From positions 1-31,357 of the IMG/VR virus record IMGVR_UViG_3300028378_000018: a stretch of 31,357 nt of DNA; one strand, given 5' to 3'. Origin of the DNA: a virus. The notes beneath the pieces were generated by a model. That model searched no databases. It saw only the letters and a program-made list of their open reading frames with translations, and was not told the origin of the DNA. The translations under genes and the position numbers were made by a program. Every line of letters starts with the position of its first letter. Within the stretch, counting starts at the first letter, position 1. Below, one piece after another: positions 10,495 through 28,770 of this stretch.

Positions 10495-11019
10495 ATGCTG
10501 ATTTACTATGCCTCGGACAACGGGAATGTTCTGTTCACAGTCGACGGCGACCCGGACGCGCCGCCGCCGGGTGATTACATCAACGTACCCGACGACACGC
10601 CGATCACCCCTCTGGAAGCGTTTGAAGTGTCCGGTGGGGCGCTTTTCGACCGCGTAGTGCCGGTGATGCCCGACCATGTGGATGCAGAGATTGAGCGACG
10701 CTTGCGCATGGGTACGGGAATTGCCGTAACGGGTATTGGCGACATTCCGGTGCAGGGCCGCGATCGGGACATGGCCATATTCCCCAACCTGCGGGACAGC
10801 GCGAAGGAATTGCAGGAAGCCGGCATAACGGCCGCTGTCCTGCCCTTTCGCGACCGGGACAATGTCACGCACATGCTGACGCCGACGCAGATGCTGGAAC
10901 TGGTCTCGGGTGCGCGCATGGCAGCGCAGGCGCTTTACAGCGCAATGTGGGATCTCAAGGACGCCAACCCGATACCGCAAGATTACACCGATGACAGCTA
11001 CTGGCCGGTTTCATCCTGA
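10495..11019 (+). CDS. DUF4376-like protein, fibre-associated
   Basis: A 174-aa protein directly after the tail fibre (2-bp gap). The C-terminal half (about 65-165) shows the DUF4376 pattern seen in phage tail-fibre neighbours: IERRLRMGTGIAV, then FRDRDNVTHMLTPTQMLEL and a final helix ALYSAMWDLKD. The N-terminal part (1-55) is a short beta-rich region with Pro/Asp turns. Proteins of this type are encoded next to fibres and may help in fibre assembly or be part of the fibre, but their function has not been shown as far as I know. Its TGA overlaps the ATG of the QueC-like gene by one base (TGATG), so the two are probably translated together. Confidence 0.7.
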   Translation: MLIYYASDNGNVLFTVDGDPDAPPPGDYINVPDDTPITPLEAFEVSGGALFDRVVPVMPDHVDAEIERRLRMGTGIAVTGIGDIPVQGRDRDMAIFPNLRDSAKELQEAGITAAVLPFRDRDNVTHMLTPTQMLELVSGARMAAQALYSAMWDLKDANPIPQDYTDDSYWPVSS

Positions 11020-11645
11020 TGCAGCTCGCGTGCCGTCTTCTCATGTTTTCCGGGGGTCTGGATAGCACATACGTCCTCAAGAAGTTCCTGACGGAAACTG
11101 ACGGCGTCATCTGCGTGCATCACATTCACTTGGCAAACCCGGATCGCAGGGGCGAGGCCGAAACCAAAGCCTGCCAAGCCATCATCGACTATTGCAAAGC
11201 CAATTATCGCACGTTTTTCTACAGCGAATCCAACATCGACCGAACCGGCATGACAGGTTTTTTCGGGTTCGACGTGATGACCGTCTCTTTCGAAGCCGGA
11301 ATCGCCGCGGTCAATTTCAAGAACACAATGGGCGTCATGCCGACAGAATGGTACTTTGGCGAGTGCCTTGAAGATCTCGACAGCCCGTACCAGAAGATGA
11401 AGAACCGGGCCCATTGCTTGAGGTCAGCCATGCAGGCCGGATGCTGGCCCGAGAAACCGCCGCAGCTGAAAACGATTCCTTGGCCGACGAAATTGCAAAC
11501 CATGCAATACCTCGCGCCCGACCTGGTCGATATGTGCTGGACGTGCCGCAATCCCAGGTCGTCAATCACTGGCCGCTACGGCTTTCGCGAGTGTGGCCGC
11601 TGCCATACCTGCAAGATGGTCAATTCCACGAGACGCGACCTGTAA
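11019..11645 (+). CDS. QueC-like PP-loop enzyme (7-cyano-7-deazaguanine synthase family)
   Basis: A 208-aa protein with the PP-loop pyrophosphatase motif FSGGLDST at residues 10-17 and a C-terminal cysteine cluster (C173, C176, C192, C195, C198) ending CGRCHTC. This fits the QueC zinc site C-xn-CxxCxxC. QueC converts 7-carboxy-7-deazaguanine to preQ0 using ATP and ammonia. PreQ0 feeds tRNA queuosine synthesis and, in several phages, deazaguanine DNA modification that blocks restriction. The stretch TIPWPTKLQTMQ sits where QueC has its helix before the zinc site. Length is near the family norm. FolE, QueD, QueE and the transglycosylase DpdA are not in this window. The middle of the protein is divergent, so a related PP-loop activity is possible. 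Confidence 0.72.
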   Translation: MQLACRLLMFSGGLDSTYVLKKFLTETDGVICVHHIHLANPDRRGEAETKACQAIIDYCKANYRTFFYSESNIDRTGMTGFFGFDVMTVSFEAGIAAVNFKNTMGVMPTEWYFGECLEDLDSPYQKMKNRAHCLRSAMQAGCWPEKPPQLKTIPWPTKLQTMQYLAPDLVDMCWTCRNPRSSITGRYGFRECGRCHTCKMVNSTRRDL

Positions 11646-16065: not shown

Positions 16066-19000
16066 GTGGCTCGCGAAAACGTCTTTGCGCTCAATCCCGT
16101 AGATTATGAACTGGAACGCCAGAAAGCTGATCGGCAAGGCCGCAGCATTTTCGGCACGCAGGACAAGGCGCCTAAGACGCCATCGCCCGCGCTGAACGCG
16201 GACGGCACGCCCGATTACGCCAAGATCGCCACCGAAACACAGGTGCCGCGCAATCTCGTGATCGCGCTCACCGAGGCCGCCGGGCTCAAGGACGGCGCGC
16301 AGAAAGGCGCGTTCGCAACCGAAGCCGCCAGCCGGATCGGCCGAGAAATTTCCGGCGGCAAAGACGCCAAGGCCGCGCTCAAGGCGGTTCTGGGCGAAGA
16401 TGCGCCGGTCGACGACCTGATCACCGCCGCGCGCGCCGTGCCCGAATACGAGCGCGTGGGCGTGGACAGCGACAAGGACAAGCCCGCGGGCGATGACGGC
16501 GGCCGGTCATGGCTCGACCCGAGCCGCGCCTATGATCCGCTTGGGCTTCTGCAAAGCGACAATGCCGCCGATGCGCGCAAGCAGGTCGCCGGCGGCGTGG
16601 CGAAAGGCGCCGGGGCCGCGGTCGAGGGCTTCGGCATTCTCCGCAGCAGCCGGTTCTATGATCCGCTCAACCTGATCAACGAGGAAGGCAAGAAGCAGGT
16701 CAGCGACGCGACGCGCAAGGTCGCGGACAGCATGCGCGATTACGGCAAGACTGTGCAGGAAGGCGTGACCAAGGAAAGCCGTGACGCGATCAAGGCCAGC
16801 ACCCCGGACGGCGATATCTTCAAGCCGTCCACCTGGACGCTGGGCGAAGATCCGAGCGTGCGCGGCTACACCATGCTGACGATGGACGTGCTGGGCTCGC
16901 TCGCGCCGGTCGTGGTGGCGTCCGTGATCGGCGGTCCCGGTGCCGGTGCCGTGGCCGGCGGCCTGCAATCGGGCGGGGCTGGAGCGGAAGAGGCGCGCGG
17001 GATTGTCATGGCGGCGGCCAATGAGATGGTCGAGGGGCCGGACGGCGAACAGATTTCACGCCTCGAGGCTGACAGCCAGTATTACCGCGATCTCCGCGCG
17101 GACGGCGAAAGCCATGAAGTCGCCACGCAGAAAACCGCCGAGGCGGCCGGGCGGCTGGCCGCGACCTATGCCGCGCCGGTCGGTGCCCTGGGTGGCGCAA
17201 TCACCGGCGGCATCGTCACCGGCGGCGTCAAAAGCCTCGCCGGGCGGTCTGTTGGCACGCGCGTCGCCGGCGGCGCGGCGCTCAGCGCCACCGAGGAAGC
17301 CGCGCAGGAGACGGCCGAGGGTGTGGCCGCGCGCAAGGGCGCCTCCGACGCGACTGGCATGGACGTGGATTTGTGGGAGGGATCTTTCGGGGCCGCCATC
17401 CTTGGCGCGCTTGGCGGTGGGCCGCTGGGGGCCGCCGGCGGGCTTGTCACACAGCGCGAGGAACAGCAGGAAGAAAGCCAGCCTGCGCCGCAAGCGCAGC
17501 TACCCGCGCCCGACGCACCGATCGACGGCGAGATCATGGCGCCCGAGGCCATGCCCGAACCGACCGGGCCGATCAGCCGGGCCGCGCAGCAGGCGCCCGA
17601 GGGCGCCGCCGAAGCCATGGCGCAGGGCCAAGAGACCGGCATGTTCCCCGACATGAAGCCGGGCGGCGAAGTCGCATTGCGCGATGCGGACGGCCGGGAT
17701 TACAACGCCGTGTTTCTGCGCGAGGATCAGAGCGGCGTCACCGTGCGGATCGCCGGGCAGGAAGTTCCGATGTCCGCGCAAGAGTTTGACGAGGCGCGCG
17801 CAGAGGCGCAGCGTGAGGATGAAGCAGAGGGTGAAGCGCCGGCGGCCGAGGAAGAAGCCGATCCGCTTGCCATGGACGACGAGACCCCGCCTGAGATGAC
17901 GCAGCCGGCGGCCGAAATCGAGTTGCCCGAGGGCGTCGACCGCGACGATTTTGAAGAACGGACCGCCATCCTGGAAGAAGGCGCCGGCATGGACCGGGCA
18001 AGCGCCGAGGCCCGCGCGCTCGAGATGATCCAGCGGCGCATGGAAGAACAGCGTGCCGTTGACGAGCAGGCGGCCATCCCCGACGCGCAAGAAATGGGCG
18101 AGCAGGGGCAGGTTGAGGCGCCCGAGGTCGTCGAAGCCCCGTCCGAACCCGAGCCGATCGCCGCCGAGCCGCCGGCATCGGTTGAGACACCCGAGCCCGA
18201 ACCCGCGCCGGCCACCCCGGACCAGCCCGAGCTTATCACCGTCACCGACGTCTATGGCGATAAGAGCCGCGTTCTAAAGGCCGATCTGGACAGCGACAAG
18301 CCGATGCTGCGCCGGTTCAACGCCAAGGGCGAGCCGATCGAAAATGACGGCGCGCTCATCGCCCGCGGCAATATCGACACGGACGGCACCGGCGTCACCG
18401 AGACGTACAAGGATCAGCCCGTCATTGGCATTGGCCGCCAAGGCGACCAGCCGTCAAAGAGCAAGCCCGGCGTGCGCCAGGCGATCAAGAATCGCGGGCA
18501 GAAGGTCGAGGATTTCGAGATCCGCGAGGTTAAAGGCGGGTTTATCGGCGTGCGCAAGAGCGCGATGGCCGAGCCCACGGCGGAAGACGCCGCCGAGCCC
18601 GAAGACGTACCCGCAACCGGTGAGGATAACGAGGCCGCGCCGCAAGCGCCCACGCGTGGAATGACGACGCGCCCCGGGTATACGCGCCGCATGGAAGGGA
18701 GCGAGTCCACTACCACTCAAGAGCGCATGACCGAAGACGGTTTTGTGGTGACGCGCGAAGTGAACCGCACGACCGTTCGAGACCCAAAGGGGCGTCAAAT
18801 CTTCGTGGGTGAGCATGATGTTGATGAGGGGAAAGTCGAACGCGCCATTGAAAAAGCGCGCGAACCCGAAACCGCCGCGGCGATCGAGGCTGCCGCCGCC
18901 GAAACCGACCCGGATCCAACGCCCGCGCAGGCCGAGGCCGAGAATTACAAGACCGGCAAGGCGCAATGGGCCGGGCTGACCCTTTCGTTCGAGAACCGCA

Positions 19001-22000
19001 AAGGCGGCGAGCGCAGCGGCACCGACGCCAACGGCAACGAGTGGTCCGTCACCATGCCCGCGCATTACGGGCGGATCCTGCGCACCGAGGGCGCGGACGG
19101 CGATCACGTCGATTTCTACATGGGCGATAGTCCGGGCTCCGATGCTGTCTGGGTGATTGACCAGATGGACGCCGAGACCGGCCGCTTCGATGAACACAAG
19201 GTCATGCTGGGCTTTGACAGCGTGAACGCAGCCGCCGAAACCTACATGGACGCGTTTGAAGACGGAAAGGCCGAGGCCCGCTTGGGCGGCATGCGCAAGA
19301 TGACCGTGGAGGGCTTTAAAAAATGGCTGGAGGGCGACACGACCGGCCCGGTTTCGCGCCCTGCCAAGCAGCAGGATGCAGGGGCGCAGGCCAAGCCCAA
19401 GACCACCGTGGACGAAAGCAACGTCAACGACCCTGATATGCCCGCCGGGTTCCAGCTTACGGCGATCAATCGCATGACGAAGCCGCAGGCCAAGGATGCA
19501 GGCGTGTCGTGGCCGGCCGTGAAGGCGATCGTCACGACGTCTAAGCCCTATTCGTGGGGCACATACGAGGGGATCAGCGAGACCAGCCGGGCCGATGCAA
19601 TCCAGAAGGCGCTGAGTTCTGCGCAGCGCGCGGTAGAGAAGCGTCCGCAGCCCCAAGCGACGCCCAAACCCGCGCCCACCGCGCCACAGCCGCCGATTGA
19701 CCGCTTAGAAAGCGTCGTGAGGCTTGTCAGCGAATCGGAGGGTATGCAGGAGACGGGCGCTGCCGCAGTCCTGTTGCCAGCTTTGACCGACTTCAAGCGC
19801 GGCACCTCGCCGGACGCGGTCATTCCACAGCTACAGGAAGCGTCGCAGTTGTTGTTCCGGCAGTACCCCGAAACTTCTGATGTTCTCGACGAGATCGTTA
19901 CGGCACTGGAGCAGCAGGCCGAGCAGGACGCAGAGCCTGAGCCAGAAAGTCCAAGTGTATCGAATGAGAAACCTGAACCGGATCAAGTGGCGCCGCCCAA
20001 ATCGGGCATCCTTGGCACGCTGTCGCAGGAAAAGCAGGACCGCGCCGCCGAGTTGAAGAAGCGCCTCGCCGACAAGGCGCGCAGCCAGACCAGCAGCGGG
20101 ATCGACCCGGAATACATCACCCTCGGCGGCGAGCTGGTGGCGCTCTACATCGAGGGCGGCACGCGCAAGTTCGGGCAGATGCTGCGCGACTTTGCCGAAA
20201 CCACGGGCCTGTCCATGCGCGAGGCTCAAGGGCCCATGCGCGCGGCCTACAACTATGTGCGCGACGAGAAGGATCTGGCGGGCGAAGACGTGTCCGACAT
20301 GGATGGGGCCGACGCCGTCATGGCCGAGATCCGCGCCGCGATTGCCGAGGAAAGCGCGCCCGCCAAACCGGAACAGGCGGCTGACGATACCGCCGAGGCG
20401 CCGCAGCCCGCAGATCCCCGGTCGGAAGTGGTGACGCTGGCCGACTATTTCCAAGGCCGGCTGAGCGACGGGGCCGTGTTCAAAACCATCGTCGGCGCGC
20501 GCAAGGAGGCCAGTCAGGTTCTCGGGCGCGATCTCGGCGAGTCCGATCTGAAAATGGTGGAAGAGGCAATGGAAAGCGGCGTGGTGCAGGCTGCCCGCGA
20601 TATCGCCGCGACCGACAGGACCGACGCGCAGAAGTACGACGACCTTGTGGACCTCTACGGCCGACAGCCCAACCTGACGCAGCGCACATCCTCGTCGATC
20701 CAATACCAAGCGTATTCGACCCCGGCGCCGATGGCCTATCTCGCTTCGCGGCTCGCTGGCATCACCAAGGACACGACGGTCTATGAACCGAGCGCGGGCA
20801 CGGGCATGTTGCTCATGGAGGCCGCGCCGCGGAACGTGGACGCCAACGAGTTGCAGGCCAGCCGGTACGAATTGCTCAACCGCATCTATGCCGAAGGCGA
20901 TATCGCCCGCGGCGACGCGATGCAGGACAAGGTGCCCGACGCGGTCGACGTGGTCATCGCCAACCCGCCTTTCGGCAAGGTGAAGAACCCGGACGGCCGC
21001 GGCAACACCGAATGGGATCTGACAGGCACGTCGACGACGACCAGCGAGATCGACCACGCGATATCCATGCGCGCCCTGTCCGGCATGCGTGACGACGGCA
21101 GCGCCGTGCTGATCGTAGGCGGCCATCAGGGCGACGCGGAAGCTCGCAAGACCAAGTACCGCACCCCGAAAAACCGCGTGTTCTGGAAGAAGCTCTACGA
21201 GACCTACAACGTGACCGAGCACTTCACCCTCGACGGTGGGCTCTACTCGCGCCAAGGCGCCGGGTGGCCGGTCGACGTCGTGGTGATCAAGGGTCGCGGT
21301 AAGAGCGGCAAATTCCTGCCTATGAAACAGGCCCCGATGCTGTATGATGGATGGGGCCAGATAAGGGACCGGATTGATGGAACGACAGATAGCCTGGACC
21401 CCCGAGGGGGGCAACCCGCAGACGATGGCGGTGCTTCTGCCACGGCAGGACAAGCCCCTGACACTGGAGGCGTATCAGGAGCATCTACGCCGCCGGTACG
21501 AACGTCTGGTCAGGCAGAGCAAGCAGGAGGGGCGCGACCCTCTGGCGATGGCACAGGAACAGATGGCGCAGTGGGACGACCTGACGCCCAGCAACAGCCG
21601 GGAGATACCGGAAATGCTGGCGACACGGTCGGAAACCCTGATGACCAACTTTCCGATGGGGCAGTTCCCGGTCCCGCAGAGCAAGGTGACGGAAACGCGC
21701 GCGGCCCGCGAAGCGGTCAGGCTGGTACGGTTCAGCGACCTTCTGACGGCAATCTACCCGACAGCGTAGACAGGCCGTCGCGCGCCAAGGTCGAGCGCGA
21801 CAACACCGAAACCGAGACAGACTTCCAAGTCCAGTATTCGCCGAGGTCCAACGCGAAATTCGCGGTCGGCACGCTGGTCCCGAAGAACGTGGCCGATTCC
21901 GTGGGCGCGGCGCTTTCCGATCTGGATGGCCGGGTTGGCGATATCGACGACTTCGTTGCGCGCGAACTCGGGTATGATGTCGACGACATGCTGGGCACCG

Positions 22001-25000
22001 ACAGCAAGCGCGGGTATTTCTCGGCAGAGCAGGTCGACGCCATTGCGCTCGCGATCGACAACGTGGGCGACGGGCTGGGGTTCATCATCGGCGACCAGAC
22101 CGGCGTGGGGAAGGGCCGCATTGTGGCCGGCATGATCCGGTATGCGCTCAAGCAGGGCAAGACGCCGGTTTTCTTCACGGTGAAGCCGGGGCTCTACGGC
22201 GACATGCTGCGCGATTTGCGCGATATCGGCATGACGGATATCCAATCCGAGGTGATGGTCACAAACAACGGCCTGCGGGCCAGCAACGCGGTGCCTATCA
22301 GTGCGCGTCCGGGCGACGTTCTGGCGTCAGGCACGAACGCTGAGCAGGACGTCGCAATCCGCACTATGCGCGATACGGGCGCCCTGCCGGAAGGCAAGCG
22401 CGTGCTCTTCACGACGTATGACCAGATGAACACGCAGAAGAAGGATATCACTTCGCGCATGCGCGCGATGCAGGCGATCGCCCCGAACGCCATGTTCATC
22501 CTCGACGAAAGCCACGAGGCAGGCGGCACCGCGAACAACCAGGAGCCAAAAGCGGGCGACCCGGAACCGCGTTCCGTGTTCATCCGCAAATTGCTCGCGG
22601 AATCGCCCAACGGCAAGATGTTCTCGTCAGCCACCTTCGCCAAGAACTCGGCCGTCATGTCGCTCTACACCTCGACCAACCTGCGCAACGCGCTGCCGAA
22701 CGCGCAGAAGCTCGAGGAAGCGGTCGAACGGGGCGGCGTGCCCATGCAGCAGATCATCAGTGCCGCGCTGGTGAAGGACGGCCAGTACGTGCGCCGCGAA
22801 CGCACCTACGAGGGCATCAGCATGAGCATGCAGATCCTCGAAAGCGACCCGATCGCTGCGGAGAATGGCGCGGCGGCGGTGCGTGCGATCTTCCGGCTCG
22901 ACGAGGATTACATGACCGGCGTGCGCGACGCCTATATCGAAGAAGAGTTGTCCAACCAGGGCGACGCGGCTGGACGCGATGATTCGGTCGGCGAGGCAGG
23001 CGCCTCGTCCACGAATTTTGCTTCGACCATGCACAACGTCGTCAGCCAGTTGCTTCTGTCCGTGAAGGCGACAGAGGTGGCGGATAAGGCCGTGGAACTG
23101 CACAAGCAGGGCAAGAAGCCGATCATTGCGCTGTCCAATACCAACGCGTCGATCATCAACGATTACGTGAACGATCGCGACCTGCAAACCGGCGACAAGG
23201 TCAAGATCCCGTTCAACGAGATCCTGACGCGCTACCTCAACCGCCTGCGGCGCATCACCATCAAGAATGATGACGACACCAAGGAGCATTATTTCCTGAC
23301 CGACAGCGATATCCGCACCTATGGCGGCCCGATGGCGCTGGAAGAAGTGCGCGCGACGGAAAAGCTGATTTCCGAGATTGATCTTGGCGACCTGCCGGGC
23401 TCGCCCATTGACGCCATCCGCGACAAGATGGAAGCCGCAGGCATCAAGGTCGGGGAGATCACCGGGCGCAGCAAGCAGATCCGCAACGGCGTGCTGGAGA
23501 CGCGCAAGGGCGGTCAGGCCGAGAACAAGCGGATCATGAACGGCTACAACAGCGGGGCCAACGACGCGCTGATCATCAACCGATCGGGCGCGACCGGGTT
23601 CTCGATGCACGCGACCGACGCCCCGGACAATGACGGAAAGACGCGGGCCATGCTCATTTTGCAGCCCGACAACAACATCGACGTGTTCATGCAGATGCTG
23701 GGCCGGATCAACAGGACCGGCCAGACCAAGCTGCCCGAATACGTCATCGCGGTTTCGGATCTCGCGGTGGAGAAACGCCCGGCCGCGCTTCTGATGAAGA
23801 AGCTCGCAAGCCTCAACGCCTCGACCACGGCCAACAAGAAATCAGCGGTCACGATGGATGACGCGCCCGATTTCATGAACAAGTACGGCGACCAGGTTGT
23901 GCGCCAATACCTGATCGACAATCCCGAGGTCAGCATCGCGACCGGCGTAAAGGCGCCGCCCAAGGCGACCGAGTCCGCGGGGATCGCGGCAAAATTGACC
24001 GGCAAGCTGATCGTTCTCGGCCCCAAACGCACCGAGGAAATTTACGCCGACATTCAGGAAGCGTACCAGAACTATATCGACGAACTCGACAGCATGGGCG
24101 CCAATGACCTTGAAGCCAAGGTTCTTGAGATCGACGCCAAGACCGAAGACTCGGAAGTGATCGACCAGGGCACGGCCCCCGATAGCGCGTTCGGGCGCGA
24201 TACCGTGCTCGAGACGGTCGACGCCAAGGTGATCGGCAAGCCTTACACGCTGGAAAAGCTGGATGAGCTGGTCGAAGAGGCGCGCGACAGCAAGAGCATC
24301 GACGCGCATGTCGACGCGCAGACCGAAGCCATCGACGCGGTCTATTCCGAAGTGATCGAGGCCGACAACGAGCGCCGGCGCGACCTGCAGAAGCGCGCGG
24401 CCGAGGCCAAGACCGAAAAGCAGAAAGACAAGATCGCCGACATGCAGACGCGGCACGAGACCGCGGTGCAGTCGAAGCAGGATCGTGTCAGGCAGATCAA
24501 GGAGATCGTCAGGCAGATGGCCCCCGGCCGCCCGCTGATGGTGTCGTTCCTGCAGAACGGCGAAACGCAGGAAACCGTCTATGCGACGGCCTTGGGCGTG
24601 GACCTGTCACGCATGTCCGACAGCGTCGCGCCGTCGAAAATGTCGGTCAAGATCGCGCTGGCGTCGCCCGGGAAACAGGTCACGATTCCCATGGGCCGGC
24701 TGGTCGGTGAAGGGTCGGACGACTATTCGATCACCACGGCGCGCGAGCAGACCGTGCGCAACGCCTTCGAGAAAGGGCAGGCGCAGACCCGCGAGACGCG
24801 CCAGATCGTCACCGGCAACGTCATCAACGGCTTCTCCAAGTTCAGCGGCAAGGGGCAGATCGTCATGTTCCGCCGCGATGACGGGACGCTCGATCAGGGA
24901 CTTCTCTTGCCCAAGGACTTCTCGGCGATGGACGCGCTTGCAGAGGCGCCGCGCGCGTTCGCGAATGTCGATCAGGCCATCCGGTTTGCCGCCATCGCCG

Positions 25001-28000
25001 GCACCGATGGGGCCCCGGCCCTGTTGAAAACTGCGGACGGTGTCATGACGGTGCAGCGGACGCAGAAGCCCAACGACTTCCAGATGACGATCGAGCGGAC
25101 ACGAGGCTACAAGCCTTATATCTTCAACCCCGTCGTGCGCGACATGCTGGGCGACTTCACCGCACGCTCCGGCCCGTTCAAGAAATCCTTGGATACCGAA
25201 ACGCTGCGGCAGGTGCTGTCCGAATACGAAACCAGCCTTGGCACGGAGTTTCAGGCGACCGCGCACAAGGAAGAAGCGCAGGCTATCATCGACGCATCGA
25301 AGCCGCAGGGCCGCCGCCGCGACGCGGGCGACGCCAGCCCGGCGCCTTACACGCGCGAGGCGTTCGAAAGCCTCAAGTCCGATCTGCAGGACGAGTTGAA
25401 CCGCATCGGCATTTCCGGCCAAGTGCGGCTGCGCGTCGCCAAAGGGTTCCGGTATGACGGCACGACCCTCGACGGGTTCTTTCATGAGGGCGTGATCGGC
25501 GCCGGCACGGGGTCCGATGTGGGCGCCCGCGGCGTCATGCGGCACGAGGTCATCCACGCCATGCGCAACCGCGCCTTGTGGGGCCGGGATTACGGGCTCT
25601 TCACCGAAGGCGAGTGGCAGGCCATGGTGCGCGCCGCGCGCAACAACCGATCGGTGCGCGACCGGATCAACCGCACCTATCCCGATCTGAACACGCCGCA
25701 GAAATCCGAAGAGATGGTGGCTGAGGCGTTCCGCGAATGGATGGACCAGCGCGACACGCAGGACTCAGCCGGGCGCGCGTTCGAGAAGCTGCGCCGGATC
25801 GTCGAGGCGTTTCTGAACGCGCTGCGCCGCAACGGGGCCAACGAGGCCGCCGAGGTGTTCGAGCGGATCCGGTCGGGCGAAATCGGCGGGCGCGGCCCCG
25901 GCGGCGGGCGCGGCGTGCGCGGGCCGGTGCAGGGCATGCGGCGCGACCCCGCGTCCCCCAAGGGCGTGCCGATGGGCGCCCCGCGGACATGGCGCTCCAA
26001 GGGCAAGGATCTCTGGAACGACCTTCTGACCGACTCCATGGGCGGGCGCACGGGCAAGGCCAACGTGCTGGCGCTGGTGCCGGGGCGGCCGCTCTTCGAG
26101 GAATTGGGGCGCAACCTGCCGTCAGCGCGGGTTTATCTCAAGCTGAAAGACCTGATGGACACGCTGCGCCAGGAATGGCACGCCAAGACCGACGAGCTTG
26201 CGCGGGACTGGATGAGCAAGGCCGGCAAGGATACCGAGGCCAACGGCCGGATGATGGACCTGATGCACCGGTCCACGCTGGCCGGGATCGACCCGTCCAA
26301 GGCGTTCGACCCGGGCAAATATTCGCAGAAGCAGAACCGGGTCCGCGCCGCGGATTACGATCTGCTGCGCGCCGAGTTCAAGGATCTGCCGCCCGAGTTC
26401 CAGACCCTGTTCCGCAAGGTGCGCGACGATTACAGCGAGATCGCCGACGAGTTCGAGAAGGCTATCGTAGAGAATGTCAGGAACGCGCAGCGCGTCGCGG
26501 TCAAGCGGGCGCAGCGGGCCCATGACAAGGAGATGCAGCGCATCGCCGACGAGGGCCTGACCGGCAAGGAAAAGCGCGACGCGGCCGAAGACGCGAAGGC
26601 AAAGCTGAAACAGGCCAAGGCGCGCATGGGCTGGGCGCAGAACGCGCGCATTGCAGAGATGCGGCAGCAGTTCGAGTCGAACCGCCTGCAAGGCGTCTAT
26701 TTCCCGCTCGCCCGGTTCGGCAGCTACTTCGTGGCGGCGCGCGACAGCAAGGGCAAGGTGGTGTCATTCTCGCGGTTCGAGAAGCAGCGCAAGCAGCGCG
26801 AAGAGGCCAAGAAGCTGGAGGCCGAGGGCTACACCGTCGACACGGGCGTTCTCGGCGCGGCGGATACCGATCTCAAGACCATGGTTGATCCGACCTTCGT
26901 GGCCGACATGGAAAACCTGCTGGCCACCTGGGACGTCGAGCCCGCGGTCATGGACACGGTCTGGCAGAGGTGGCTGGAAACCTTGCCCGATCAGTCGATC
27001 CGCACCAACCGGATCCACCGGAAAGGCCGCCAAGGCTACCAGAAGGACGCGCTGCGCGCCTACACGCACCATATGTTCCACGGCTCGCACCAACTGGCGC
27101 GGTTGAAATACGGGCTGCAGATGCAGGACGCGATCGACGAGGCATATACCGAAGCCGCGCAGAGCAGCGACAGCAACCGCGCGACGCTGGTGGTCGACGA
27201 GATGAACCGCCGGCACCAGTGGACCATGAACCCGCAAGTGTTGGGCGCCTCGACGGCGATCACGTCACTGGCCTTTGTCTGGTATCTCGGGGCGACGCCG
27301 GCGGCGGCCATGGTCAACCTGACGCAGACAACGATCATGGGCATACCCATCATGAACGCGGCGTTCCGCAATGCCAGCGTGGGCGAGATCGCGCGGCAGC
27401 TTGGCCGGGCGGGGCTCGATTTCGCATCCGGGCGTGGCGACGCCACCGCATCGAGCCGCTTGTCGCAAGATGAAAAGGACGCGCTGGAGAGCGCGCACAA
27501 GCGCGGGATCATCACTCGGACCCAAGGGCACGACCTTGCATCGGTCGCGGAAACGGGCGTGGAATACAGCGGGACGCGCGAAAAGATCATGCGCTTCTTC
27601 TCGTACCTTTTCCACAAGGCCGAGGTTGCCAACCGCGAGGTGACGTTCCTCGCCGCGTACCGCATGGCTATGGCCGAGGGCGGCACGCGCGAGGGCGCGG
27701 TCGACAAGGCCGGGTCCGTGACGTGGAAGACGCATTTCGATTACCAAGGCAGTTCGCGGCCGCGGTTCATGCAAGGCGACTGGCCGCGCGTGTTCTTCAT
27801 CTTCAGGCAATTCCAAGTGAATGCCATCTACCGCCTGTTCCGCGACACCTACCAGACATTTGAGGGCAAGACCGACGAGGAACGCCGCGAAGCCAAGGCG
27901 CAACTGGTCGGCATCAGCCTTTCGATGATGGCGCATGCGGGGATCACCGGCGTCTGGGGCTACGGCCTCATCACGACGCTTCTGGGCCTGTTCTCGGGCG

Positions 28001-28770
28001 GCGATGACGACGATATCGACGAATGGCTGCATGACGCGCTTCTGATGGAGGGCAACAGCACCGGCACGGCCGCCTGGAACTACATGATGGGGATGGCGCT
28101 CAAGGGCGTGCCGGGGCAGATCAGCGAGATCGCACTGTCCGAGCGCATTGGCATCCCGAACCTTTGGTTCCGCGGCCCGTTTTACGACATGGACGCGCAA
28201 GACACGGTCACGCATTACGTTCACGAGCTCGCGGGGCCGGCGGCCAGCATCGTGTTCAGCATGGGCCGCGGCATGCAATACATGGCTGAACAAGACTGGT
28301 GGCGCGGGGCTGAGGCCATGGTTCCCAAGATGGCGCGCGATATCTCCAAGGGCGTGCGCTACACCATGGACGGGGTCGAGACGCGCAACGGGGATCCGAT
28401 CCTGGAGGACGTGTCGCCCTATGAGGCGATCGTGCAGGCCATGGGGTTCACCCCGGCCCGGCTGGCCGAGCGGTATGACGACATGAGCCGCATGCGCGAC
28501 GCGGAAAAGAAGATCATCCGCGAACGCTCGAGCCTGCACGGCGACATTGCCAAGGCGGTGTCCGAGGGCGGCGGCATGACGCCCGCGCTTCTCAAGCGGA
28601 TCCGCGCGTTCAATCAGAAGCACCCGACGTTCCCGATCACCGGATCCAGCATCCGCCGGTCGATCGGCTCTCGCCAGCGGTGGAGCGAGGGCGTGCAGCG
28701 CGGCGTGAACATCAACGACAAGCTGCGACCGGGCATAGAGCGGGACATGGCGCCGCAGCTTTACGACTGA
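16066..28770 (+). CDS. Giant polyvalent protein: pyrophosphatase-like, N6-adenine methyltransferase, SF2 helicase, metallopeptidase, LPD38-like
   Basis: One uninterrupted 4234-codon frame from a GTG with TAGGAGA before it. In order: glycine-rich hydrophobic segments (about 272-300, 364-388, 441-461); acidic disorder (470-760); an inorganic-pyrophosphatase-like domain (960-1088, HYGRILRTEGADGDHVDFYMG); a helical domain (1320-1410); an adenine methyltransferase (1535-1745, YEPSAGTGMLL and NPPF at about 1632); a low-complexity linker (1760-1905) hiding a nested gene; a DarB/strawberry-notch-like helicase with GDQTGVGKGR at 2009, DESH at 2147 and QMLGRINRTGQ at 2543; coiled coil; a metallopeptidase with HEVIH at 3160; and an LPD38-like C-terminus with membrane-like stretches at about 3725-3762 and 3946-3980. 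Known polyvalent proteins, such as P1 DarB, enter with phage DNA and counter restriction; the same role here is inferred. RSIF stands at residue 26. Confidence 0.9.
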   Translation: MARENVFALNPVDYELERQKADRQGRSIFGTQDKAPKTPSPALNADGTPDYAKIATETQVPRNLVIALTEAAGLKDGAQKGAFATEAASRIGREISGGKDAKAALKAVLGEDAPVDDLITAARAVPEYERVGVDSDKDKPAGDDGGRSWLDPSRAYDPLGLLQSDNAADARKQVAGGVAKGAGAAVEGFGILRSSRFYDPLNLINEEGKKQVSDATRKVADSMRDYGKTVQEGVTKESRDAIKASTPDGDIFKPSTWTLGEDPSVRGYTMLTMDVLGSLAPVVVASVIGGPGAGAVAGGLQSGGAGAEEARGIVMAAANEMVEGPDGEQISRLEADSQYYRDLRADGESHEVATQKTAEAAGRLAATYAAPVGALGGAITGGIVTGGVKSLAGRSVGTRVAGGAALSATEEAAQETAEGVAARKGASDATGMDVDLWEGSFGAAILGALGGGPLGAAGGLVTQREEQQEESQPAPQAQLPAPDAPIDGEIMAPEAMPEPTGPISRAAQQAPEGAAEAMAQGQETGMFPDMKPGGEVALRDADGRDYNAVFLREDQSGVTVRIAGQEVPMSAQEFDEARAEAQREDEAEGEAPAAEEEADPLAMDDETPPEMTQPAAEIELPEGVDRDDFEERTAILEEGAGMDRASAEARALEMIQRRMEEQRAVDEQAAIPDAQEMGEQGQVEAPEVVEAPSEPEPIAAEPPASVETPEPEPAPATPDQPELITVTDVYGDKSRVLKADLDSDKPMLRRFNAKGEPIENDGALIARGNIDTDGTGVTETYKDQPVIGIGRQGDQPSKSKPGVRQAIKNRGQKVEDFEIREVKGGFIGVRKSAMAEPTAEDAAEPEDVPATGEDNEAAPQAPTRGMTTRPGYTRRMEGSESTTTQERMTEDGFVVTREVNRTTVRDPKGRQIFVGEHDVDEGKVERAIEKAREPETAAAIEAAAAETDPDPTPAQAEAENYKTGKAQWAGLTLSFENRKGGERSGTDANGNEWSVTMPAHYGRILRTEGADGDHVDFYMGDSPGSDAVWVIDQMDAETGRFDEHKVMLGFDSVNAAAETYMDAFEDGKAEARLGGMRKMTVEGFKKWLEGDTTGPVSRPAKQQDAGAQAKPKTTVDESNVNDPDMPAGFQLTAINRMTKPQAKDAGVSWPAVKAIVTTSKPYSWGTYEGISETSRADAIQKALSSAQRAVEKRPQPQATPKPAPTAPQPPIDRLESVVRLVSESEGMQETGAAAVLLPALTDFKRGTSPDAVIPQLQEASQLLFRQYPETSDVLDEIVTALEQQAEQDAEPEPESPSVSNEKPEPDQVAPPKSGILGTLSQEKQDRAAELKKRLADKARSQTSSGIDPEYITLGGELVALYIEGGTRKFGQMLRDFAETTGLSMREAQGPMRAAYNYVRDEKDLAGEDVSDMDGADAVMAEIRAAIAEESAPAKPEQAADDTAEAPQPADPRSEVVTLADYFQGRLSDGAVFKTIVGARKEASQVLGRDLGESDLKMVEEAMESGVVQAARDIAATDRTDAQKYDDLVDLYGRQPNLTQRTSSSIQYQAYSTPAPMAYLASRLAGITKDTTVYEPSAGTGMLLMEAAPRNVDANELQASRYELLNRIYAEGDIARGDAMQDKVPDAVDVVIANPPFGKVKNPDGRGNTEWDLTGTSTTTSEIDHAISMRALSGMRDDGSAVLIVGGHQGDAEARKTKYRTPKNRVFWKKLYETYNVTEHFTLDGGLYSRQGAGWPVDVVVIKGRGKSGKFLPMKQAPMLYDGWGQIRDRIDGTTDSLDPRGGQPADDGGASATAGQAPDTGGVSGASTPPVRTSGQAEQAGGARPSGDGTGTDGAVGRPDAQQQPGDTGNAGDTVGNPDDQLSDGAVPGPAEQGDGNARGPRSGQAGTVQRPSDGNLPDSVDRPSRAKVERDNTETETDFQVQYSPRSNAKFAVGTLVPKNVADSVGAALSDLDGRVGDIDDFVARELGYDVDDMLGTDSKRGYFSAEQVDAIALAIDNVGDGLGFIIGDQTGVGKGRIVAGMIRYALKQGKTPVFFTVKPGLYGDMLRDLRDIGMTDIQSEVMVTNNGLRASNAVPISARPGDVLASGTNAEQDVAIRTMRDTGALPEGKRVLFTTYDQMNTQKKDITSRMRAMQAIAPNAMFILDESHEAGGTANNQEPKAGDPEPRSVFIRKLLAESPNGKMFSSATFAKNSAVMSLYTSTNLRNALPNAQKLEEAVERGGVPMQQIISAALVKDGQYVRRERTYEGISMSMQILESDPIAAENGAAAVRAIFRLDEDYMTGVRDAYIEEELSNQGDAAGRDDSVGEAGASSTNFASTMHNVVSQLLLSVKATEVADKAVELHKQGKKPIIALSNTNASIINDYVNDRDLQTGDKVKIPFNEILTRYLNRLRRITIKNDDDTKEHYFLTDSDIRTYGGPMALEEVRATEKLISEIDLGDLPGSPIDAIRDKMEAAGIKVGEITGRSKQIRNGVLETRKGGQAENKRIMNGYNSGANDALIINRSGATGFSMHATDAPDNDGKTRAMLILQPDNNIDVFMQMLGRINRTGQTKLPEYVIAVSDLAVEKRPAALLMKKLASLNASTTANKKSAVTMDDAPDFMNKYGDQVVRQYLIDNPEVSIATGVKAPPKATESAGIAAKLTGKLIVLGPKRTEEIYADIQEAYQNYIDELDSMGANDLEAKVLEIDAKTEDSEVIDQGTAPDSAFGRDTVLETVDAKVIGKPYTLEKLDELVEEARDSKSIDAHVDAQTEAIDAVYSEVIEADNERRRDLQKRAAEAKTEKQKDKIADMQTRHETAVQSKQDRVRQIKEIVRQMAPGRPLMVSFLQNGETQETVYATALGVDLSRMSDSVAPSKMSVKIALASPGKQVTIPMGRLVGEGSDDYSITTAREQTVRNAFEKGQAQTRETRQIVTGNVINGFSKFSGKGQIVMFRRDDGTLDQGLLLPKDFSAMDALAEAPRAFANVDQAIRFAAIAGTDGAPALLKTADGVMTVQRTQKPNDFQMTIERTRGYKPYIFNPVVRDMLGDFTARSGPFKKSLDTETLRQVLSEYETSLGTEFQATAHKEEAQAIIDASKPQGRRRDAGDASPAPYTREAFESLKSDLQDELNRIGISGQVRLRVAKGFRYDGTTLDGFFHEGVIGAGTGSDVGARGVMRHEVIHAMRNRALWGRDYGLFTEGEWQAMVRAARNNRSVRDRINRTYPDLNTPQKSEEMVAEAFREWMDQRDTQDSAGRAFEKLRRIVEAFLNALRRNGANEAAEVFERIRSGEIGGRGPGGGRGVRGPVQGMRRDPASPKGVPMGAPRTWRSKGKDLWNDLLTDSMGGRTGKANVLALVPGRPLFEELGRNLPSARVYLKLKDLMDTLRQEWHAKTDELARDWMSKAGKDTEANGRMMDLMHRSTLAGIDPSKAFDPGKYSQKQNRVRAADYDLLRAEFKDLPPEFQTLFRKVRDDYSEIADEFEKAIVENVRNAQRVAVKRAQRAHDKEMQRIADEGLTGKEKRDAAEDAKAKLKQAKARMGWAQNARIAEMRQQFESNRLQGVYFPLARFGSYFVAARDSKGKVVSFSRFEKQRKQREEAKKLEAEGYTVDTGVLGAADTDLKTMVDPTFVADMENLLATWDVEPAVMDTVWQRWLETLPDQSIRTNRIHRKGRQGYQKDALRAYTHHMFHGSHQLARLKYGLQMQDAIDEAYTEAAQSSDSNRATLVVDEMNRRHQWTMNPQVLGASTAITSLAFVWYLGATPAAAMVNLTQTTIMGIPIMNAAFRNASVGEIARQLGRAGLDFASGRGDATASSRLSQDEKDALESAHKRGIITRTQGHDLASVAETGVEYSGTREKIMRFFSYLFHKAEVANREVTFLAAYRMAMAEGGTREGAVDKAGSVTWKTHFDYQGSSRPRFMQGDWPRVFFIFRQFQVNAIYRLFRDTYQTFEGKTDEERREAKAQLVGISLSMMAHAGITGVWGYGLITTLLGLFSGGDDDDIDEWLHDALLMEGNSTGTAAWNYMMGMALKGVPGQISEIALSERIGIPNLWFRGPFYDMDAQDTVTHYVHELAGPAASIVFSMGRGMQYMAEQDWWRGAEAMVPKMARDISKGVRYTMDGVETRNGDPILEDVSPYEAIVQAMGFTPARLAERYDDMSRMRDAEKKIIRERSSLHGDIAKAVSEGGGMTPALLKRIRAFNQKHPTFPITGSSIRRSIGSRQRWSEGVQRGVNINDKLRPGIERDMAPQLYD
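21377..21769 (+). CDS. Nested overlapping gene, +1 frame inside the giant gene, 130 aa, unknown
   Basis: An ATG at 21377 (or TTG at 21374) with AAGGGA eight bases upstream opens a frame just after a stop at 21362-21364 and closes with TAG at 21767. It lies wholly within the methyltransferase-helicase linker. The product looks like a normal soluble protein: MERQIAWTPEGGNPQTM, then LEAYQEHLRRRYERLVRQSK and a C-terminal helix AAREAVRLVRFSDLL. By hand count about a fifth of its codons end in A or T, as in other genes here. About half do in the giant frame over the same bases, where the protein is Gly/Asp/Pro/Gln low-complexity. I do not recognise the product. A chance open frame is possible but the codon signature argues against it. 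Confidence 0.68.
   Translation: MERQIAWTPEGGNPQTMAVLLPRQDKPLTLEAYQEHLRRRYERLVRQSKQEGRDPLAMAQEQMAQWDDLTPSNSREIPEMLATRSETLMTNFPMGQFPVPQSKVTETRAAREAVRLVRFSDLLTAIYPTA

Follow-up and report, generated by a model that had tools for sequence, protein, structure and literature searches.

The locus and its giant gene

The window, i.e., the whole 31,357-base stretch of viral DNA analyzed here (IMG/VR record IMGVR_UViG_3300028378_000018), comes without a completeness estimate and is probably a fragment. It carries a gene for a giant DarB-like polyvalent protein and, between the methyltransferase and helicase domains of that protein, a much shorter nested gene. The features are as follows.

16066..28770, plus strand: gene for the giant DarB-like polyvalent protein (4234 aa)
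18925..19332, plus strand: inorganic pyrophosphatase-like domain (InPase) of the giant, Pfam match passing its cut-off
20713..21117, plus strand: N6 DNA methyltransferase domain, giant residues 1550-1684, upstream of the nested gene
21362..21364, plus strand: in-frame stop TAA upstream of the nested start (the open frame begins at 21365)
21362..21366, plus strand: Shine-Dalgarno-like TAAGG, 10 nt before the nested ATG
21377..21769, plus strand: nested 130-aa gene ending in TAG, +1 relative to the giant gene
22006..22839, plus strand: Strawberry-notch-type P-loop NTPase/helicase AAA_34 (Pfam 2.7e-23), downstream of the nested gene
23446..23919, plus strand: Helicase_C_4 (Strawberry notch C-terminal) domain of the giant, passing its cut-off
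26020..26574, plus strand: LPD39 polyvalent-protein domain of the giant, passing its cut-off

The giant is very long, carries polyvalent-specific domains, and has an N6 methyltransferase followed by an SF2/SNF2-type NTPase, which makes it a DarB-like methyltransferase-helicase of the kind represented by DarB of P1, as characterized in the available portions of Iyer et al. 2017 (PMC5512222). The Pfam N6_Mtase match (4.4e-4) falls just under its cut-off and is accompanied by several PHROG methyltransferase matches, and the C-terminal part of the giant matches phrog_10089 (DarB-like). According to excerpts of PMC9024508 and PMC5512222, P1 DarB, a head protein believed to pass into the cell, gives protection from type I restriction; the former source adds, in the same excerpts, that its entry into the P1 head uses the helper proteins Ulx and DdrB. 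Within the window, genes for the major head protein, other head proteins, an internal virion protein, a tail fibre, and an endolysin lie 5' of the giant, and spanin and endolysin genes lie 3' of it. A QueC-like queuosine biosynthesis gene is also present amid the virion genes, at 11019-11645. Earlier work reportedly exists on the giant protein of Bcep22.

A second reading frame within the linker

A sequence-only reading had placed a 130-codon frame at 21377-21769, +1 inside the giant gene, and its coordinates, frame, and stop all proved exact. The ORF runs for 393 bases from an ATG at 21377 to a TAG at 21767-21769, wholly within the giant ORF and in another frame, as an overprinted gene does. 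Read-in from farther upstream is barred by the TAA at 21362-21364, which stands in the nested frame. The ribosome site that had been proposed is also present, as the TAAGG that precedes the ATG; many relatives have a stronger site, AAGGAG, than the modest one of the window.

Composition likewise sets this frame apart. GC content at codon positions 1/2/3 of the nested frame is 0.669/0.462/0.808, practically the same as that of the entire giant gene (0.661/0.462/0.823), whereas the giant frame over the nested stretch gives 0.809/0.664/0.458, the last of these being the lowest GC3 among 411 windows of 131 codons along the gene. Codons ending in A or T make up 19% of the nested frame vs. 54% of the giant frame, in agreement with the shift previously counted by hand. 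The giant's low complexity over this stretch was confirmed as well, since its residue composition lies outside the range of 384 other windows of the protein: 85% of the segment is G/D/P/Q/A/S/T/N (mean of the others 53%, maximum 67%) and 8% is I/L/M/F/V/W/Y (mean 26%, minimum 15%).

Conservation among viral relatives

The methyltransferase-linker-helicase stretch, used as a query, retrieved seven IMG/VR loci (L002-L008) as well as a Sediminimonas MAG contig of 14.2 kb that is identical to L002, and a +1 ORF occupies the linker in all seven loci. Leave-one-out profiles recovered the nested ORF in six of seven members tested (the window, L002, L003, L004, L006, and L007; E values of 5e-41 to 3e-13) and missed L008; L005, searched with all seven, was not found. 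A profile of the giant stretch gave 226 relatives, of which 80 were kept. Rows left out were L009 (equal to L002), L017 and L077 (repeats of L003 and L004), and the sub-loci L010-L016. The resulting 86 viral loci correspond to 71 distinct nested sequences and to 61 clusters at 85%.

Every one of the 86 loci scanned has a +1 ORF, 70 codons or more in length, within the methyltransferase-helicase linker, a nested GC3 exceeding that of the giant, and a giant frame free of stops from the methyltransferase through the helicase; position 3 is the most GC-rich of the nested positions in 81. Under the start rule used, which gave L039 a poor start (62 aa; kept in the set), the nested start is an ATG in 81 of 86 loci, and an in-frame stop lies immediately 5' of it in 48 and no more than 10 codons away in 74. 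A GGAG is found 4-11 nt 5' of 46 of 56 nested ATG starts vs. 60 of 2713 other +1 ATGs in the same giants, the former count being inflated because nested starts were chosen partly by their Shine-Dalgarno score. The alignment rows of A6 and A7 start 1-3 codons 5' of the ATG.

BLASTP links 65 of the 86 nested proteins, including that of the window, into one group, to which profile-profile comparison adds two groups of 8 and 7 members at 93.9% and 92.8%, respectively; decoy +1 ORFs (60 of 209 available) reached at most 0.9%. By the same comparison L074 and L091/L092 are joined weakly (44% and 33%), and L005, L008, L039, and the Bacteroidota set described below are unjoined by either profile or profile-profile comparison. 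The protein search suggested at the outset had a divided outcome. Single-sequence tblastn with nested proteins against phages or plasmids returned nothing or the query itself only, and viral contigs scanned with the window protein and with P0004 as single sequences likewise gave none; a separate search with a profile of 15 nested proteins reached 45 loci, with 36 contigs already in the set and nine new ones. In all 45, over the extent examined, the giant frame is open across the nested gene; contig ends truncate two of these loci.

Selection and chance openness of the two frames

Sixteen disjoint close pairs were drawn from 205 pairs in the divergence range, and their substitutions at nested codon positions 1/2/3 number 241/191/405. 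When the same stretch is read in the giant frame, the counts become 399/241/199, such that in sum the giant wobble position changes least; the methyltransferase flank of the same pairs, read in the giant frame, shows the usual pattern (533/371/1267), the reverse of that in the nested stretch. Individually, the nested wobble is the highest in 15 of the 16 pairs and the giant wobble the lowest in 12. Some of these pairs held repeated sequences, and a recount on the 11 pairs without repeats gave 173/133/296, with the nested wobble highest in all 11 and the giant wobble lowest in nine. The ratio of nonsynonymous to synonymous change (N/S) relative to expectation is 0.44 for the nested frame and 1.24 for the giant frame within the nested stretch (317 substitutions, 10 close pairs), whereas in the flanks (five of 11, those with no more than 20% divergence) the +1 frame has 1.70 and the giant frame 0.115. 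This comparison is uneven, the methyltransferase flank having diverged far beyond the nested stretch in some cases. In pairs such as L037/L050, L038/L040, and L032/L056, for example, the nested proteins are roughly 88-94% alike and the methyltransferases upstream 63-69%, and the methyltransferase seems to have been exchanged faster than the nested gene.

The nested frame is thus under purifying selection beyond that due to its host frame. Synonymous-site variation had been named as a check, and in close relatives the nested wobble is the most variable and the giant wobble the least. Frequent stops or random change in the nested frame beneath a conserved giant frame would have argued against a gene; the opposite was found across the homologous loci.

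An open +1 frame alone is weak evidence, because the +1 frame in the window was open in 53% of trials in which the residues of the giant were kept and their codons redrawn from the usage of the giant gene itself. The observed GC3 of the window giant nonetheless lies 11.8 s.d. below the redrawn-codon value. Across the set, chance would leave the +1 frame open in 20.7 of 61 clusters, and all 61 have it open. The giant's GC3 falls more than 3 s.d. below the redrawn value in 44 of them; the other 17 show no such deficit, one being 6 s.d. high. With the nested protein held fixed instead, a stop-free giant frame is expected in 2.1 of 61 clusters and is again observed in 61, which, together with the constraint on the nested frame, argues that both frames are kept.

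Predicted fold and protein properties

AlphaFold2, run on 39 nested proteins, predicted a fold with a pLDDT of 95.7 and a pTM of 0.88, in which a helical domain comes after a short strand-helix-strand unit. The predicted fold is without a match in the libraries searched: Foldseek gave no PDB or BFVD match at an E value of 0.001, and VIA-align gave none at Z 2 among 121 chains. Family and structure libraries yielded nothing useful for the window-type nested gene, and weak matches to single members (DUF3618 at 7e-4, ERK-JNK_inhib, phrog_4933, and others) were judged to be chance. None of the 61 cluster members has a membrane-like stretch. Acidic DNA-mimic antirestriction proteins of the Ocr and ArdA type are known for their strong negative charge and their mimic fold; a pI below 5 is indeed predicted for 50 of the 61 cluster members, but the window member is neutral (pI 6.6) and the model has no fold match in the PDB.

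Occurrence in annotated phages and plasmids

A +1 ORF of the window kind lies between the methyltransferase and the helicase in seven of 16 annotated phage and plasmid records, i.e., in Bacteroides phage BS-TP4 and in plasmids of Chroococcidiopsis, Synechococcus NIES-970, Leptolyngbya, Picosynechococcus, Gloeobacter, and Thalassospira. The match to the nested profile is clear in three of them (L099, L151, and L156; E values of about 4e-8 to 5e-8 in a small set), and the remaining four gave no clear match. In the other nine records, namely P1 darB and eight plasmid or phage relatives (Acinetobacter phage MD-2021a and plasmids of P. putida, Persicobacter, Vogesella, Cupriavidus, P. savastanoi, Bosea, and Rhizobium), the linker has neither a +1 ORF with coding-like composition nor a nested profile match; in the Persicobacter plasmid, the methyltransferase and helicase are separate genes. 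In a midpoint-rooted FastTree of the methyltransferase and helicase segments from 13 of the 16 records (branch supports not considered), five of the six giants without a nested gene fall together and the sixth lies outside. Linker length was rejected as a marker, since it does not cleanly separate giants with and without the nested gene: the NPPF-to-Walker A distance in those without is 245, 281, 295, and 304 residues, but also 362 and 424.

The Bacteroidota phages form a set of their own, in which BS-TP4 and nine IMG/VR relatives (L161-L163 being alike) all have a conserved +1 ORF, with the giant frame open across it in all 10 loci. BS-TP4 and L168 differ by 25/9/43 changes at codon positions 1/2/3 of the nested frame, which read 43/25/9 in that of the giant, and their flanks differ by 22/14/96; in more distant pairs the codon-position pattern is less clear. 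The nested GC3 of BS-TP4 (0.65) is unlike that of its giant (0.41). AlphaFold2 predicted the Bacteroidota nested protein with a pLDDT of 89.6 and a pTM of 0.83, and its order of structural elements is nearly that of the window model, which suggests that the two nested proteins may belong to one old family.

Copies elsewhere

For Gloeobacter plasmid pGMOR1 (L156), the annotation lists the nested frame as the hypothetical protein WP_230844304.1, and the helicase alone. This is the sole public protein record of the nested family seen, and hhalign relates it to the family at 95.8%. The pGMOR1 gene table omits the methyltransferase part of the giant and has the helicase begin at an internal ATG; PLSDB tables exclude pseudogenes, and the original pGMOR1 record may differ. 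An unfused, stand-alone ancestor was considered for this copy and rejected, as the methyltransferase frame is open through the nested gene into the helicase.

Genome searches for the nested gene covered overlapping class, family, order, and phylum samples of 385, 394, 390, and 398 genomes, respectively (the third being searched with the G745 protein), and returned only genomes G008 and G745 and one match judged to be chance, which sits in genome G1368 in what is presumably an Rnk-like gene. The copy in G745 (L178:5444-5803, 120 aa) stands alone with its own ATG; it matches the profile at an E value of 1.7e-5 and the family by hhalign at 92% over 47 columns. Neither the window giant nor L099 enzyme pieces gave a tblastn match on its 13.4-kb contig. 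The copy adjoins AlpA, Toprim, and DUF3987 genes, with HsdM on the same contig, and we read the locus as an integrated satellite-like element that bears the nested gene. No stop interrupts the -1 frame of the copy (probability by chance, 0.09), which is rich in Gly/Ser/Asp/Ala, with no giant around it. This open shadow frame suggests that the G745 copy may stem from a nested ancestor. It also indicates that the linker composition follows from the nested code, of which the low-complexity linker in the giant is, at least in part, a shadow.

Interpretation and alternative explanations

That an independent gene is constrained here, with the giant carrying it as a linker, had been proposed from the letters alone and is now borne out by homologues in the same place, the codon-position tests, and a confidently predicted fold. 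That the nested gene is real is hardly in doubt, and the explanation that best accounts for the whole, held with high confidence, is that 21377-21769 is a genuine overprinted gene with its own start on the methyltransferase-helicase linker. The Shine-Dalgarno site and the stop just upstream point to internal initiation, with ribosomes most likely starting at the nested ATG on the giant's mRNA. The product would be a small, soluble, globular protein, and the giant frame would be kept open through the nested gene, giving the low-complexity Gly/Asp/Pro/Gln linker.

Three alternatives dispense with an independent gene. In a GC-rich genome, a linker rich in Gly/Asp/Pro might simply have an open +1 frame by chance, as the redrawn-codon openness (0.53 in the window, 20.7 of 61 clusters) and the 17 clusters without a GC3 deficit beyond 3 s.d. 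would allow. This compositional artefact is contradicted by the substitution tests and by the 61 of 61 clusters open, the depressed giant GC3 (in the window and in 44 clusters), the homology, the Shine-Dalgarno sites, and the predicted fold, and it is highly improbable. An RNA or DNA element, e.g., a structure or a packaging or recombination site, would also suppress change at the giant wobble; yet the changes center on the nested wobble in both the full and the repeat-free counts, the nested N/S is 0.44, and a confident fold was predicted from the alignment, such that a noncoding element has an equally slight chance of being correct. A programmed frameshift in the giant, yielding a truncated methyltransferase that ends in the nested domain without a start of its own, is a little less implausible, though still improbable. 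It draws on the position of the +1 frame directly after the methyltransferase and on Sinorhizobium phage PBC5, where a second nested family (see below) stands in frame at the end of orf33, but 48 of 86 loci have an in-frame stop right before the chosen start and 74 have one within 10 codons, the ATG and Shine-Dalgarno site recur, and the stand-alone copy has its own ATG.

Given an overprinted gene, its function is a more tentative matter. The product may act in trans as an accessory of the giant's DNA-entry or antirestriction step, either aiding the packaging or activity of the giant or acting on host restriction. This predicted role, which we infer from co-encoding with the giant, from occurrence on viral contigs, plasmids, and one element-like locus, and from a copy without the giant, is put forward as a possibility somewhat short of even. 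The stand-alone G745 copy indicates that the giant is not always needed in cis. Nearly as likely, though on balance doubtful, is a role as a dedicated inhibitor or chaperone, with the product holding the giant inactive or packageable through assembly and having no antirestriction role itself. The virion-gene context of the window and the confinement of the nested gene, one exception aside, to that giant are consistent with such a role, as is the help that DarB receives from other P1 proteins (Ulx and DdrB) in reaching the head, according to excerpts of PMC9024508; the stand-alone copy, with no giant on its 13.4-kb contig, speaks against it. Ulx resembles the nested product insofar as it is a small protein tied to DarB (same excerpts) but differs in being a separate gene in P1, and as a homologue of the nested protein it was rejected (hhalign probability of 0.2%). 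Under the accessory reading, the nested product represents a small candidate factor in a DarB-type entry and antirestriction system.

Embedded phage genes have precedents. Gene E of phiX174 lies within gene D in another frame, and E, like Rz1, is a lysis protein encoded within a short host gene. Rz1 inside Rz is illustrated by JC1 in the available portions of PMC9144972. The nested gene resembles both pairs in that a whole gene lies within another, in a different frame, with both used; it differs in that its product is a soluble protein with a predicted fold, located in the linker of a 4234-residue enzyme, and in that the arrangement recurs in phages and in plasmids of several phyla. The sequence-only reading knew of no account of nested genes in polyvalent linkers, and no description of one in DarB-like or polyvalent proteins was recognized in a search of open-licence papers; in the available portions of PMC5512222, the word "overlapping" is absent and "nested" is used of a hairpin only. 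The family, found on viral contigs, in a Bacteroides phage, and on plasmids of Cyanobacteria and Alphaproteobacteria, is almost unlisted in the public records examined because gene-prediction programs tend to retain the long frame at the expense of the nested one. It offers a clean natural case in which to measure two proteins sharing one stretch of DNA, and other low-complexity linkers of giant phage proteins may likewise be shadows of hidden genes.

A second nested family and further candidates

A different +1 ORF lies before the methyltransferase in the DarB-like giants of Erwinia phage PEp14 (L171:5779-6093) and Microcystis phage Mwe-JY07 (L172); members of this second family, which also include L173-L175, have the N-terminus MNLNNWV. 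By tblastn the family occurs in 21 records of 12 phages, including cultured ones. The giant frame is open around the nested ORF in the four phages compared (PEp14, Pavtok, Stean, and SopranoGao), and the family's own wobble base changes most in six of six pairs. In PBC5 (L169), the family is found in frame at the C-terminus of orf33, a separate protein, which implies that the PBC5 giant is split, and a real indel or a sequencing error could explain the split. A stretch like the second family also ends the 2185-position phrog_938.

With respect to origin, it is conceivable, if rather unlikely, that the nested frame is the older one, and that methyltransferase and helicase genes became fused by reading through the gene between them, the linker being newly made. 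If true, fusion that runs across a gene already in place, rather than around it, would offer giant multi-domain proteins a general route of origin; more than one such event is suggested by the second nested family.

A blind codon-usage scan with strict thresholds recovered the nested gene in only 28 of 61 giants and listed five other ORFs (L051:3049-3345, L076:3772-4005, L088:3793-4041, L089:3313-3564, and, antisense, L067:5842-6102). All five have better codon usage than the giant frame, and some may be further nested genes.
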